A stretch of DNA of 52,520 nucleotides, from assembly GCA_024998645.1 (NCBI GenBank), contig JACOEJ010000011.1:1-52520 (forward strand), given 5' to 3'. Shown piece after piece: positions 7,698 to 50,399 of the stretch. Source of the stretch: Nitrospira sp. (GTDB lineage Bacteria > Nitrospirota > Nitrospiria > Nitrospirales > Nitrospiraceae). Each line of letters starts with the position of its first letter. Position 1 is the stretch's first letter. The position numbers were made by a program, and so were the translations under genes. The notes below the pieces were generated by a model. The model saw only the letters and a list, made by a program, of their open reading frames with translations, was not told the DNA's origin and made no database searches.

Positions 7698-7815
7698 GGT
7701 GTTTCGTATCAAAATTCTCCGTGACGAATAGTACCTGGCTCAACCCCGCGGTGCAACCCGCTTGGCCCCCTGTGCTATCATCTTCCTCGGAATTACGACA
7801 GGACGGGGTACCGAG

Positions 7816-9351
7816 ATGACAAGCAGCCGGACCATAGCATTTCCTGCAACCTGCCGCATGGCCCTGTGCATCATCCTCTTGTATGTGATCCATGCCGAAC
7901 CAGTGCCGGCGCAGTCATCCGATGCAGGACTGCAGGCATCCCTGAGCACCCTCTCAACCGAACGGATGCTGGCCGACATTCGAACATTGAGCGCCCCCAC
8001 ATTCAATGGGCGACAAGCCGCCACCCCGGACGATCTGCAATCGGGGCTTTGGGCATGGGAGGAATTTCGTAAGGCAGGATTGCGCTTCCCCACCCTGTTC
8101 AACGGTCCACTGTCTATTCCATCAATCAGTGGCGATGAAGGGCAATCACTGGGAATCATGGCGGCTATCGTCCCTGCAGCACTTCTTGAGCCCGATCCAC
8201 TGGTACGCCTTGGAACGGCCGATCAACGAGTGACGGCGCAAATCACTGCCGATTACCTTCCCGTCTTCGATTCACCCTCAGCTGATGTCCAAGGCCAAAT
8301 CGTGTTCGTAGGCCATGGAATCGTCGATACCGCTCGCGGCATCGATGACTATGCCGGCGTGGATGTCGCCGATCGCATCGTCCTCTTCCTGCGGGGCAAG
8401 CCGTATCAGTACCCAAAACCCGTCAGCCATGCCGACAAGGTTCGGTTCGCACGAGACCGCGGAGCCCTCGCCTACTTGACCGCGACAGGGCCGATTCTCA
8501 ACTCCTATGAAGCCCGGCGCGGGGTCACGGGAAAGCCCAGCGCATTCTACGGACAACTCCCTCCCGATCAAGGCATCCCCGGCGCATGGATCAGCACGAC
8601 GCTCGCAGAACAGATCCTTGCCACGCCAAGCGACGCAGATCGCCTTCGGCATCTTCAGGAACAGCTCAATAAGGATGATTCAGCCCACGCATCGCAAACA
8701 GATCAATACGTCTCACTCCGCTGGAATACCACCATACAAGAAGGCCTGCTGACAAACATCGTGGGATTGATCCCCGGAACCGGCCCTGACGCCATCATCA
8801 TCGGGGCCCATCGCGATCACTTCGGCCGTCCGGCGGGATTGCTCTTCCCGGGAGCAGACGACAATGCCTCAGGCACCGCCGTGATGTTGGAAGTTGCCCG
8901 CGCACTGGCGGAATCAGACCTGCGCCCGCAGCGCACAATCCTGTTTGTATCGTTTAGCGGCGAAGAAAATAACCTGCTCGGCTCGCGCCTCTACGTAACC
9001 CGCCCAGTCGTGTCTCTCGCCTCAACCAAAGCCATGATCAACATCGACCATGCCGGAATCGGCAATGGACGCTTGACGGTCGGGGTGACAGGGCTGGAGA
9101 AAACGGTCTCGCAGCAGGCGGGAGAACCGGCGGGTCTTGCATCCAAGCTCGACGTATTTGGATTCTTCCCCGGCGGCGACCACGTCCCGTTTAAAGAAGC
9201 CGGCGTGCCAACCATTACCATCGTCAGCGGCGGGATACATGCCCACTATCATCAGCCGACTGATACGGCCGACACCATCAATCCTGACGCTCTCATGACG
9301 ACAGCACGCTACGTCCTGTCATTGGCGTGGCAACTGGCGAATGAACCGTGA
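7816..9351 (+). CDS. Secreted M28-family zinc aminopeptidase with PA domain
   Basis: About 511 residues from ATG 7816, chosen because it starts a signal peptide (MALCIILLYVIHAEPVPAQS, residues 15-34). A protease-associated (PA) region lies around 150-230. The M28 catalytic domain follows, with a metal-binding series in the expected order: GAHRDH, GADDNASG, SGEENN, NIDHAG and a late HAHYHQPTD. These supply His, bridging Asp, catalytic Glu, Asp and His of a di-zinc exopeptidase. It probably removes N-terminal residues from peptides in the periplasm. An earlier start at 7762 would add 18 residues without a ribosome site. Transcription runs into the structured repeat at 9362. Confidence 0.88.
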   Translation: MTSSRTIAFPATCRMALCIILLYVIHAEPVPAQSSDAGLQASLSTLSTERMLADIRTLSAPTFNGRQAATPDDLQSGLWAWEEFRKAGLRFPTLFNGPLSIPSISGDEGQSLGIMAAIVPAALLEPDPLVRLGTADQRVTAQITADYLPVFDSPSADVQGQIVFVGHGIVDTARGIDDYAGVDVADRIVLFLRGKPYQYPKPVSHADKVRFARDRGALAYLTATGPILNSYEARRGVTGKPSAFYGQLPPDQGIPGAWISTTLAEQILATPSDADRLRHLQEQLNKDDSAHASQTDQYVSLRWNTTIQEGLLTNIVGLIPGTGPDAIIIGAHRDHFGRPAGLLFPGADDNASGTAVMLEVARALAESDLRPQRTILFVSFSGEENNLLGSRLYVTRPVVSLASTKAMINIDHAGIGNGRLTVGVTGLEKTVSQQAGEPAGLASKLDVFGFFPGGDHVPFKEAGVPTITIVSGGIHAHYHQPTDTADTINPDALMTTARYVLSLAWQLANEP

Positions 9352-9361
9352 AGATGAAATC

Positions 9362-9487
9362 GCAGGATGTTCAAAAAGGCTGCTCAGCTAGGCCGCAGCA
9401 AGCGAAGAGGTGAGGCGTGCTGAGTTCCGCACGTTGAACCACTGAGCGCTGCGAGAACGACGCCGACAGACTTTTTCAGCATCCTGC
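9362..9487. repeat. Structured palindromic repeat, copy 1
   Basis: 126-bp element with inverted ends: GCAGGATG (9362-9369) pairs with CATCCTGC (9480-9487), and AAAAAG (9373-9378) with CTTTTT (9471-9476). Inside, GCTCAG (9382-9387) pairs with CTGAGC (9442-9447) and CGTGC (9416-9420) with GCACG (9429-9433). It fills the space between two convergent genes and its last base is the first base of the 9487 gene's stop codon. A diverged copy lies at 49183-49306 with the same pairing plan. It may act as a bidirectional terminator or be a MITE/REP-like element. Confidence 0.75.
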
Positions 9488-9939
9488 TAGGGAATCTCGT
9501 CGAGAAGCGTCGAAGTGACCGAAGGTAGAGGACCAGTTTGCCTGGGAGGACCGGGCAAAACCAGTGGTGATCCGCCCTGGTTGGCGCCCTGGATCAGGCC
9601 GATCGAGAGTTGCGGGCCAAAGGTCATGACAGCGCCGCTCCAGGCCTGCCCCGTCGTCGGGTTCCGAAAACTATACGTCTGCATATTCCCGCCGGGCGTA
9701 TACAAATATCCCTGCGTCCCCTGACCGTCAAGATAGAGATTTGCGGGACCGGTGAGATTGAACAACGGGCCCACCCCGCCATCAAACGACCGCACACCGG
9801 ACACCGATTGTGCCAATGCCGATGCGCGCTCGACAAGCACCACCCCCACCGTCACCACTGCCGTGATGAGTGCAACCGTGAGCAGACGTCGCACCATGCT
9901 CCTGACCTGAAGGGCGAGTTGATTCATGACAATTTCCAT
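9487..9939 (-). CDS. Exported hypothetical protein
   Basis: 150 residues, not recognised. The N-terminus has a basic segment followed by a long hydrophobic stretch (LLTVALITAVVTVGVVL) and ASALAQS, a plausible signal-peptidase I site near residue 44. The mature part (about 105 residues) is rich in Gly, Pro, Ser and Thr and ends with LLDEIP. ATG 9939 and ATG 9927 are both possible starts; neither has a clear ribosome-binding site. The gene is divergent from tolC (49 bp between starts) and converges on the M28 peptidase gene across the structured repeat. Confidence 0.62.
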   Translation of the reverse strand: MEIVMNQLALQVRSMVRRLLTVALITAVVTVGVVLVERASALAQSVSGVRSFDGGVGPLFNLTGPANLYLDGQGTQGYLYTPGGNMQTYSFRNPTTGQAWSGAVMTFGPQLSIGLIQGANQGGSPLVLPGPPRQTGPLPSVTSTLLDEIP

Positions 9940-48572: not shown

Positions 48573-49166
48573 TCAGAACCCGACGAGTTGTCGCACGGGT
48601 GCCACACGGATAGCGACATGATCATTGACGGTATTACAGATATGTTCGCACATACCACAGCCCACGCAACCCTCTGCGGATACCTCAAGCCGCAGGGTCG
48701 AAAAATCCATCGATAAGGCATCCACAGGGCACTTCGAGACACAGGCATGACACCCCTGCCCGGCCGTACACAGCCGCTGAGACACTACCGCTACGCCGAG
48801 TCGAACATCCTGCATCCGGTCGACCGGCCGCAATGCGTCAGTTGCACAGGCGGCAATGCAGGGAAGATCGTCACACAAGAGACAGGGCGACTGGTCGGCA
48901 AAAATCACCGGGGTCCCGTCACCGGCATGACAGACAATCGCACCCGGATCGCAGGCCTTGATACAGTCGCCGCATTTCGTGCAGCGATCCAGAAACAAGG
49001 CTTCTTCTACAGCCCCCGGCGGACGAAGCCAATCCGTCCGCAAGACCGGAGCCGCCACCTCAGGCACAGCATCGACGTGCTTGGAAAACTCCTGTGCCGC
49101 CCTAGCGACGGACATTACGGAATCTTTCAGAAAGTCCCGCCGGCCATATGAAGGATTAGATGCCAT
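48573..49166 (-). CDS. Four-cluster [4Fe-4S] ferredoxin-like protein (NapG/NapF-like)
   Basis: 197 residues with four Cys clusters: CTKCGDCIKACDP (from about residue 62), CLLCDDLPCIAAC (about 94), CTAGQGCHACVSKCP (about 132) and CVGCGMCEHIC (about 167). The layout matches NapG/NapH- or MauM-associated ferredoxins that pass electrons between quinones and molybdenum enzymes. The start GRRDFLKDSV is a twin-arginine motif, yet no hydrophobic segment follows, so export is uncertain. It lies just upstream of torD, itself behind a separate promoter, and downstream of the 49309 gene with the structured repeat between. Confidence 0.85.
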   Translation of the reverse strand: MASNPSYGRRDFLKDSVMSVARAAQEFSKHVDAVPEVAAPVLRTDWLRPPGAVEEALFLDRCTKCGDCIKACDPGAIVCHAGDGTPVIFADQSPCLLCDDLPCIAACATDALRPVDRMQDVRLGVAVVSQRLCTAGQGCHACVSKCPVDALSMDFSTLRLEVSAEGCVGCGMCEHICNTVNDHVAIRVAPVRQLVGF

Positions 49167-49182: not shown

Positions 49183-49306
49183 GCAGATGATCAAAACGCC
49201 TGTTCAACGAGGCCGCAGTGAGTGAAAGGCCGCCGCGTACCCTCTGCGGTACGTGGAGACCTTGAACGATGCGAGAACGAAGTTGGCAGACGTTTTCACG
49301 ATCTGC
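49183..49306. repeat. Structured palindromic repeat, copy 2
   Basis: 124-bp counterpart of the element at 9362-9487. End arms: GCAGAT (49183-49188) with ATCTGC (49301-49306), AAAACG (49193-49198) with CGTTTT (49291-49296). Internal pairs: GTTCAA (49202-49207) with TTGAAC (49262-49267), CGTACC (49236-49241) with GGTACG (49248-49253). Blocks such as GAGGCCGCAG and GCGAGAACGA are shared or nearly shared with copy 1. It sits between two co-oriented genes, so here it is not a convergent-gene terminator. Confidence 0.72.
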
Positions 49307-49308
49307 AC

Positions 49309-50307
49309 CTACATCACGCCATCGGCCCGCAGCTTATACACTTCCACGCACCGGTCGCAGCCGCCGTACTCAATGTCCCACCCGGGATGGTTCTCGCGGA
49401 TGAAATCCAGAACATACGGTTCCAGCTTGGTGCCCATATCTTCCACCCACGAATAGGTCGGGAAGCGGCAGAGCGGGCAGGGAAAGCCCGGCATCAGCAT
49501 GACCTTATTTTCCGTCTCCGGAACCTCGCCCCCTTCCACATCGACCGCGCGATCCATCACACGCAAGGTATCGGTCGACATTTCGATCAACTCGGAATGG
49601 GTGAAATACGAGATCTGCCAAAGACCTTCGAATACCGATTTCAACTGGGGCGGCGCGATCTTCCGATACCACGACCGAAACTCTTTGAACCGATCCTCTT
49701 TGCTCAGCATCGGCTCCCGACCTGCCGCACTCAACCGGCTATCGACGCTCACACTCCACAGCACGCGGTAGCGCTGCAGGATCAACGTTTCTTCTCCGGA
49801 ATTCTGCCCGACCTTCGTATCAGGGTCATATCCGAAGACCGGGTCGAGCATGTCCGAGATGTGCATCAGTTCATGGCGGCAATAGCGGGTCAAGGCAGGA
49901 TCATAAAACCGTCGCGGGATCAACTTGATACCCACACCCTTCATGCCCTTGGCCTCAAAATCCCTGGCCAAATCCTGCTCGACCGATCCCCACTTGCGGA
50001 GAATGTCGACGCCTTCCTGATCTTCTTTCAAGACGCCCTTCACCAGCACAATCCCGACCTTATCCTTTAAGAGCGGATATTCGTTGAATGAATCCCGGAT
50101 AATGTCCGAAAATCCCCACGTCCCGAACAAATACTGATACAGCTTCTTAAACTCTCCTTCCCGGTCCTCGAGAATGAATTTCTCGTAGATCGGATCGGCA
50201 TGCTCATGGAACTCCTTATAGTAGGTCGGATCGCCTTCACGCTCCGTCTTTTCAACAAAGGAGTCGATGACTTCTTGCAGCAATGCGGGCTGAAATCTGA
50301 TTTCCAT
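49309..50307 (-). CDS. Unknown protein with HExxH metallopeptidase-like motif and zinc-ribbon cysteines
   Basis: About 332 residues from ATG 50307, preceded by GAGGCTTCCA. Not assignable to a named family. Visible features: RYCRHELMHISDML (His 145, Glu 146, His 149), an HExxH zinc motif in the middle; CPLC (MLMPGFPCPLCRFP, about 285) and CDRC (EYGGCDRCVEVYKL, about 320) near the C-terminus, probably a zinc ribbon. There is no signal peptide or membrane segment. It lies upstream of the ferredoxin, torD and NxrC-like genes on the same strand, and its promoter resembles that of the nine-gene operon. A protease or maturation role is possible. Confidence 0.75.
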   Translation of the reverse strand: MEIRFQPALLQEVIDSFVEKTEREGDPTYYKEFHEHADPIYEKFILEDREGEFKKLYQYLFGTWGFSDIIRDSFNEYPLLKDKVGIVLVKGVLKEDQEGVDILRKWGSVEQDLARDFEAKGMKGVGIKLIPRRFYDPALTRYCRHELMHISDMLDPVFGYDPDTKVGQNSGEETLILQRYRVLWSVSVDSRLSAAGREPMLSKEDRFKEFRSWYRKIAPPQLKSVFEGLWQISYFTHSELIEMSTDTLRVMDRAVDVEGGEVPETENKVMLMPGFPCPLCRFPTYSWVEDMGTKLEPYVLDFIRENHPGWDIEYGGCDRCVEVYKLRADGVM

Positions 50308-50399
50308 TGGAAGCCTCGAAAGAATGGATGTGACGAGCACTCAGTGCGTTGACACCACCGGAATCGCCTACGCGGGGAGATGCGGCGCCCCGCGCCACC

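Follow-up and report, generated by a model that had tools for sequence, protein, structure and literature searches.

Two diverged hairpins in a Nitrospira contig as probable relics of an IS5-type MITE family that often abuts stop codons

The 52,520-nt stretch of Nitrospira sp. DNA analysed here (the window; contig C52 of a 3.2-Mb assembly in 140 contigs that is 89% complete) contains two look-alike elements at gene ends (Table 1), raising the question of what they are, how they came to occupy these positions and whether their capacity to fold matters to the cell. The first-pass annotation reported both elements, with copy 1 between convergent genes and copy 2 between co-oriented genes, and both elements and their gene contexts are present as described. 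The copies share only 69% identity, and each folds far better than shuffled sequence: the predicted RNA folds of the plus strand reach -57 kcal/mol (z -4.2) for copy 1 and -50.5 kcal/mol (z -4.3) for copy 2, none of 200 dinucleotide shuffles folds as well, and the opposite strand folds too. The explanation favoured below, which as a whole we regard as probable, is that they are relics of a MITE with IS5-type mobility that landed at YTAR sequences coinciding with stop codons, and of which the hairpin has been retained.

Table 1. Coordinates of the two hairpin copies, their neighbouring genes and longer variants of the hairpin
Feature	Coordinates	Strand	Remarks
Copy 1, hairpin part (124 nt) of the MITE	9362..9487	+	covariance model 123.8 bits, E 1.3e-22
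CTAG, YTAR-type target sequence at copy 1 hairpin end	9487..9490
M28-family peptidase gene	7762..9351	+	PF04389, E 2.1e-39; ends 10 nt ahead of copy 1
150-aa gene, convergent with the peptidase gene	9487..9939	-	stop codon adjoins copy 1
Copy 2, diverged hairpin without tail	49183..49306	+	covariance model 112.1 bits, E 4.1e-20
TAG stop codon of minus-strand gene	49309..49311	-	2 nt off copy 2 end
Gene upstream of copy 2 (in its own direction)	49309..50340	-	stop codon beside hairpin; no family match
Ferredoxin-type (NapG/MauM-like) gene	48573..49166	-	starts ~16 nt after copy 2
Longer variants of the hairpin	L161:1568-1772, L098:469-659, L112:8832-9023, L042:6702-6899, L017:10529-10740, L209:927-1199

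Copy 1 proper, CAGG...CCTG, occupies positions 9363-9486, and the CTA that follows without a gap (9487-9489) reads, on the minus strand, as the TAG stop of the convergent gene. The 150-aa product of this gene has no Pfam or NCBIfam match, and the gene is kept beside the M28 peptidase gene, in convergent orientation, in the majority of the Nitrospira loci retrieved. The flush-stop arrangement is common to the orthologous sites L011, L012 and L048, remnants are found in L013, L017 and L052, and the arrangement is absent from many others; some orthologous sites have lost the element. One of the loci, L009, is an apparent empty site, which may be a deletion scar and is therefore no proof of an insertion mechanism.

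Searches of the window genome with copy 1 and copy 2 returned 40 and 29 places, respectively, and 39 copies served to build a covariance model (R1) that returned 64 matches; about eight of these are weak or represent the reverse strand of another, leaving about 55 clear copies. A model search of this kind, extended to relatives, had been suggested by the first-pass annotation, and it recovered dozens of further copies. Within the genus, matches to the family occur in 73 of 79 genomes, and within the phylum in 134 of 296. Distant families of the phylum carry the structure too, with up to 87 matches in a single genome; plasmid and viral collections contained no match to the element. Rfam 15 gave no match over the element at the gathering threshold or at a lax E-value, and identity with a known Rfam RNA was rejected, since Rfam has no family for it. 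The literature searched for Nitrospira MITEs and repeats yielded no account of the hairpin family, and the MITE family is apparently undescribed so far.

The family consensus is a single long interrupted hairpin of 43 pairs. Its outer arm consists of CAGGATGCT, a C.C mismatch and AAAAAG. Next come the stem CCGTCCAGC/GCTGGCGG and an internal loop, conserved, in which AAGGCCGCAG faces GAGAACG; a pair of short stems and a GGCGTAC/GTACGTT hairpin at the apex complete the structure. Among the four stems initially proposed, GCAGGATG/CATCCTGC, AAAAAG/CTTTTT and CGTGC/GCACG are consensus helices, whereas GCTCAG/CTGAGC is unsupported: 28 of the 39 copies cannot form its middle pair, and the consensus pairs both segments elsewhere in the hairpin. 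The accompanying proposal that paired bases change together is upheld across the family, as 30 of the 43 pairs show double changes in the 39 copies (14.3 when shuffled). In the same aligned copies standard pairs fill 94.7% of paired cells (86.4% when shuffled), and covariation scores 0.294, compared with 0.143 for shuffled data and at most 0.091 when the partner is slid by one to three columns. The two outcomes that the first-pass annotation had named as refuting, a lack of further copies and pairing on a par with shuffled sequence, did not occur. An independent MAFFT alignment of 26 copies, drawn mostly from distant genomes, has double changes at 19 of 28 pairs, and the loop and apical motifs are still recognisable. 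In certain distant families (L244, L245, L256 (G094, G123), L246, L257 and L258) the loop pair AAGGCCGCAG/GAGAACG is exchanged as a set for AAGGAAGG/CCTGACG or AAGGCGCGC/GCGCAACG, so that the loop region too seems to co-change.

The nature of the complete unit is apparent from a relative, G128 (4,317,083 bp), in which fresh copies are 199 bp long and consist of the 124-nt hairpin and a 75-nt tail. These are arranged in the order YTAG, CAGGATGCGGAAAAAGTC, the remaining hairpin, the tail ending in GAGTTTTTCCGCAACCTG, and the same YTAG; the terminal inverted repeats are CAGGNTGCGGAAAAA (ends CAGGATGCGGAAAAAGTC / CAGGTTGCGGAAAAACTC) and the target-site duplication is a 4-bp YTAR. Five of the six 199-bp copies fetched from G128 differ by no more than one base, and all six have matching YTAG flanks. 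Among 33 copies whose right end is recognisable, 17 carry the same 4-mer on both flanks (mean of 4.7 and maximum of 13 when shuffled). The suggestion in the first-pass annotation that the copies might have spread as palindromic mobile units accords well with these recent insertions.

A pattern combining YTAR with the terminal repeat occurs at 46 sites in G128 and its reversed control at none; about 14 pairs of such sites are at exactly 207 bp and one is at 1,324 bp. The latter pair corresponds to a 1,316-bp insertion sequence (L207:1275-2590) with the terminal inverted repeat CAGGCTGCGGAAAAAC, TTAG duplications and a 342-aa transposase of the IS5 family (NF033581, 278.9 bits, cut-off 140), and similar elements with identical ends are present in L217, L218 and L228. 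These insertion sequences have the terminal repeats and YTAR duplications in common with the MITE but differ in encoding a transposase, the 124-nt hairpin being characteristic of the MITE. Duplications generated by IS5 in Escherichia coli are YTAR (PMC10359306). Membership among IS5-family MITEs is indicated by the shared terminal inverted repeats, by the YTAR duplication (in relatives) and by the element being short, multicopy and non-coding, its indels not being multiples of three. As sequence comparison with these relatives shows, the full unit of ∼199 bp comprises the 124-nt hairpin, whose outer arm is one terminal inverted repeat, and a ∼75-nt tail ending in the second. An IS5-family DDE transposase, encoded by 1.3-kb insertion sequences that possess these ends and acting in trans, would insert the unit at YTAR and duplicate these 4 bp.

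A different transposase, RAYT, had been raised in the first-pass annotation, and REP/BIME-like repeats moved by RAYT (Y1 tyrosine) transposases resemble the element in being palindromic, intergenic and repeated; the TAG at the hairpin foot is like the GTAG tag of REP sequences, and Y1 transposases are encoded in 61 of 76 genomes of the genus. However, no Y1 transposase was found in the window genome (in an assembly that is 89% complete), copy number shows no relation to Y1 transposases in the genus, Y1-free genomes such as G003, G014 and G070 carry dozens of copies, and the transposase that matches the element belongs to the IS5 family. The 4-bp duplications and the ends held in common with an IS5 element also argue against such a system, as does the hairpin itself, which is 124 nt long rather than 20-40 bp with a GTAG/CGTC tag and has at its foot a variable copy of the YTAR target. 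A REP/RAYT system was rejected as very improbable, there being no Y1 transposase in the genome and no relation to copy number.

IS5-type mobility in the window genome itself appears to lie in the past. No relative of the L207 transposase was detected at E<=1e-20 in this genome (89% complete) and a recognisable tail end is retained in only two of 52 analysed copies; with no close IS5 relative and the tails nearly all gone, the copies look like relics. The two look-alike stretches of the window are apparently old copies of the MITE, moved by IS5-type transposases, and both would be tail-less relics of this Nitrospirota family. A tail end was sought beside copy 1 and none was recognisable, and because the window copies have neither a tail nor a two-sided target duplication, their transposition is deduced from that of their relatives. 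In L171, L172, L154 and other loci, the tails or spacers downstream of the hairpin hold further TTTTTCNGCANCCTG terminal motifs, which are either solo terminal repeats or belong to other MITEs of this IS group.

The position of the hairpins relative to genes is distinctive. Genes were called with a simple codon-score caller, so the counts are approximate: an opposite-strand stop codon lies exactly at the hairpin end in 64 of 155 copies, and offset 0 accounts for 64 of the 97 nearby stops, against a uniform expectation of 0.8. These 64 stops comprise 43 TAG, 15 TAA and 6 TGA, as expected if the stop codon had been the YTAR target, and in 12 further copies a stop on the same strand is found 73-76 nt from the other end, at the expected terminus of the tail. 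Copies are flush with stops, then, because the YTAR target is the stop codon itself, which is duplicated. Insertion at a TAG or TAA stop would leave the gene intact, and since these codons match YTAR and the gene would be unharmed, the surviving copies would be those flush at stops, at gene ends and between the genes of operons.

Placement directly behind stop codons would also suit hairpins that are mainly intrinsic, possibly bidirectional, terminators recruited from the repeat by virtue of a GC-rich stem with AAAAAG/CTTTTT flanks. Most copies do have an A-tract and a T-tract round a GC-rich stem, and copy 1 lies between convergent genes, but the T-tract is in some cases replaced by CTGTTT, CTAGTTT or CCGTTT with pairing preserved, and many copies lie within housekeeping operons (for example pyrG-kdsA-kdsD-pgsA-plsY), where full termination would be harmful; we consider this reading unlikely. 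The view taken in the first-pass annotation, that a single terminator role is inadequate, is reasonable for an element found both between convergent genes and within operons. In L109:1-16000 (G000:C63), an operon-like row has hairpins right behind the stops of pyrG, a kdsD-like gene, pgsA and other housekeeping genes.

Rows of this kind, in which seven same-orientation copies lie behind open reading frames within 10 kb of G040 and five in C63, recall the attC-like recombination sites of integrons, as do the length of ∼124 bp and the flush position. Against this, no integron integrase scores above the TIGR02249 cut-off in the window genome, the ends are CAGG...CCTG rather than RYYYAAC/GTTRRRY, and the element is associated with YTAR duplications. 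The genes between the hairpins are fixed and, judged from their translations, housekeeping, and are therefore not gene cassettes. For want of an integrase, and given the fixed housekeeping genes, the attC interpretation was rejected as scarcely credible.

After insertion, the tail has been lost and the hairpin retained, changing by compensatory pairs. Copies at orthologous sites were compared with simulations in which substitutions occur independently. The L096/L188 pair differs by seven double compensations and no breaks (simulated 0.7 and 10.9), the L148/L202 pair by nine and two (simulated 1.2 and 14.0), and window copy 1 and L012 by 12 and one (simulated 1.9 and 16.1). In L012 the outer arm is GCAAGCGAGTCAAACGGG, a quite different sequence in which pairing is complete, and which is so changed that it is hardly usable as the same terminal repeat. 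Such compensatory change between orthologous copies suggests that the fold was kept after insertion, in keeping with the selected fold envisaged by the first-pass annotation. Conservation of unpaired columns is not above that of paired columns overall; the loop motifs AAGGCCGCAG and GAGAACG are conserved among copies, as are, in diverged copies, the two C residues that form the C.C mismatch beside the AAAAAG stem.

Selection is the simplest reason for the compensatory change, and template switching is its main rival. Correction of quasi-palindromes is an established source of mutation, and the hairpins may be neutral MITE relics that have no host function and whose arms stay paired because template switching or intra-element conversion transfers mutations between them as the DNA is replicated. 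Fresh MITE copies in relatives and loss of the element at some orthologous sites are compatible with neutrality, which we nevertheless judge rather unlikely: correction should erase mismatches and internal loops too, yet the C.C mismatch and the AAGGCCGCAG/GAGAACG loop persist, weakening the case for template switching, and the hairpin has been retained in the window genome where nearly all tails are gone. The continued co-change of paired bases suggests that the hairpin is still useful to the cell.

The likeliest cause of retention, with about an even chance, is that the transcript is selected for its fold at the 3′ end of an mRNA or between cistrons; by analogy with ERIC or Correia/NEMIS the hairpin could act as a processing, stabilising or terminating structure. 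G-U pairs outnumber A-C mismatches by 188:78 overall and by 73:42 where a stop abuts, favouring the strand antisense to the abutting gene, which is the opposite of what selection on that gene's transcript predicts. The counts are a weak indicator of strand, were set aside as such given their conflict with a role at gene ends, and constitute the main observation that such a role leaves unexplained. A more tentative possibility sees the hairpin as a structured module of RNA or single-strand DNA that occurs throughout the phylum, has fixed internal loops, is read by a host factor and is carried as cargo by IS5-type MITEs; it would have been recruited repeatedly as a gene-end regulator because the target is a stop codon.

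The family is a real MITE family of the ERIC, Correia and RUP kind. According to the portion of a review that describes them (PMC2229807), the enterobacterial ERIC or IRU (RU-1) sequences are 127 bp long, close in length to the element, and, like it, imperfect intergenic palindromes that form a long RNA stem-loop; they are reported there to affect the stability of upstream mRNA. In that account ERIC sequences have TA ends, 7-bp terminal inverted repeats and no known transposase (PMC2229807), and the Nitrospira MITE is set apart from this published description by its YTAR duplication, terminal inverted repeats of ∼15-18 bp, IS5-family partner and Nitrospirota hosts. Correia/NEMIS elements of Neisseria, as covered in the same text, are also MITEs with terminal inverted repeats, exist in long and short forms and yield a transcript stem-loop proposed as an RNase III substrate; they differ in their TA-type ends, 24-bp repeats and host taxa, and stop-codon phasing is not among the features it describes (PMC2229807). 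The partner of RUP, a 107-bp MITE of Streptococcus pneumoniae, was likewise inferred from ends in common with an insertion sequence, IS630-Spn1 (PMC2229807), although on that description RUP has an IS630-type TA target in place of an IS5-family YTAR target. The palindromic 'multicopy nucleotide sequences' of Geobacter are also intergenic repeat families, the likeness being one of published description (PMC2996986, PMC2700814).

A named transposase partner, a simple landing rule and evidence of fold selection are rare among bacterial MITEs, and the Nitrospira family offers all three in its IS5 partner, its YTAR targets that are stop codons and its co-changing pairs at orthologous sites. Should the cell make use of the fold, a transposon-derived 3′-end element that Rfam does not cover would be shared by dozens of genes in each genome of these environmentally important bacteria. 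Caution is warranted in annotation, as rows of hairpins behind open reading frames may be misread as integron cassettes or as plain terminators. Longer variants of the hairpin (Table 1) carry ∼65-85 extra nt in its upper part, with at least two different inserts, and recall other bacterial MITEs that have both long and short forms.
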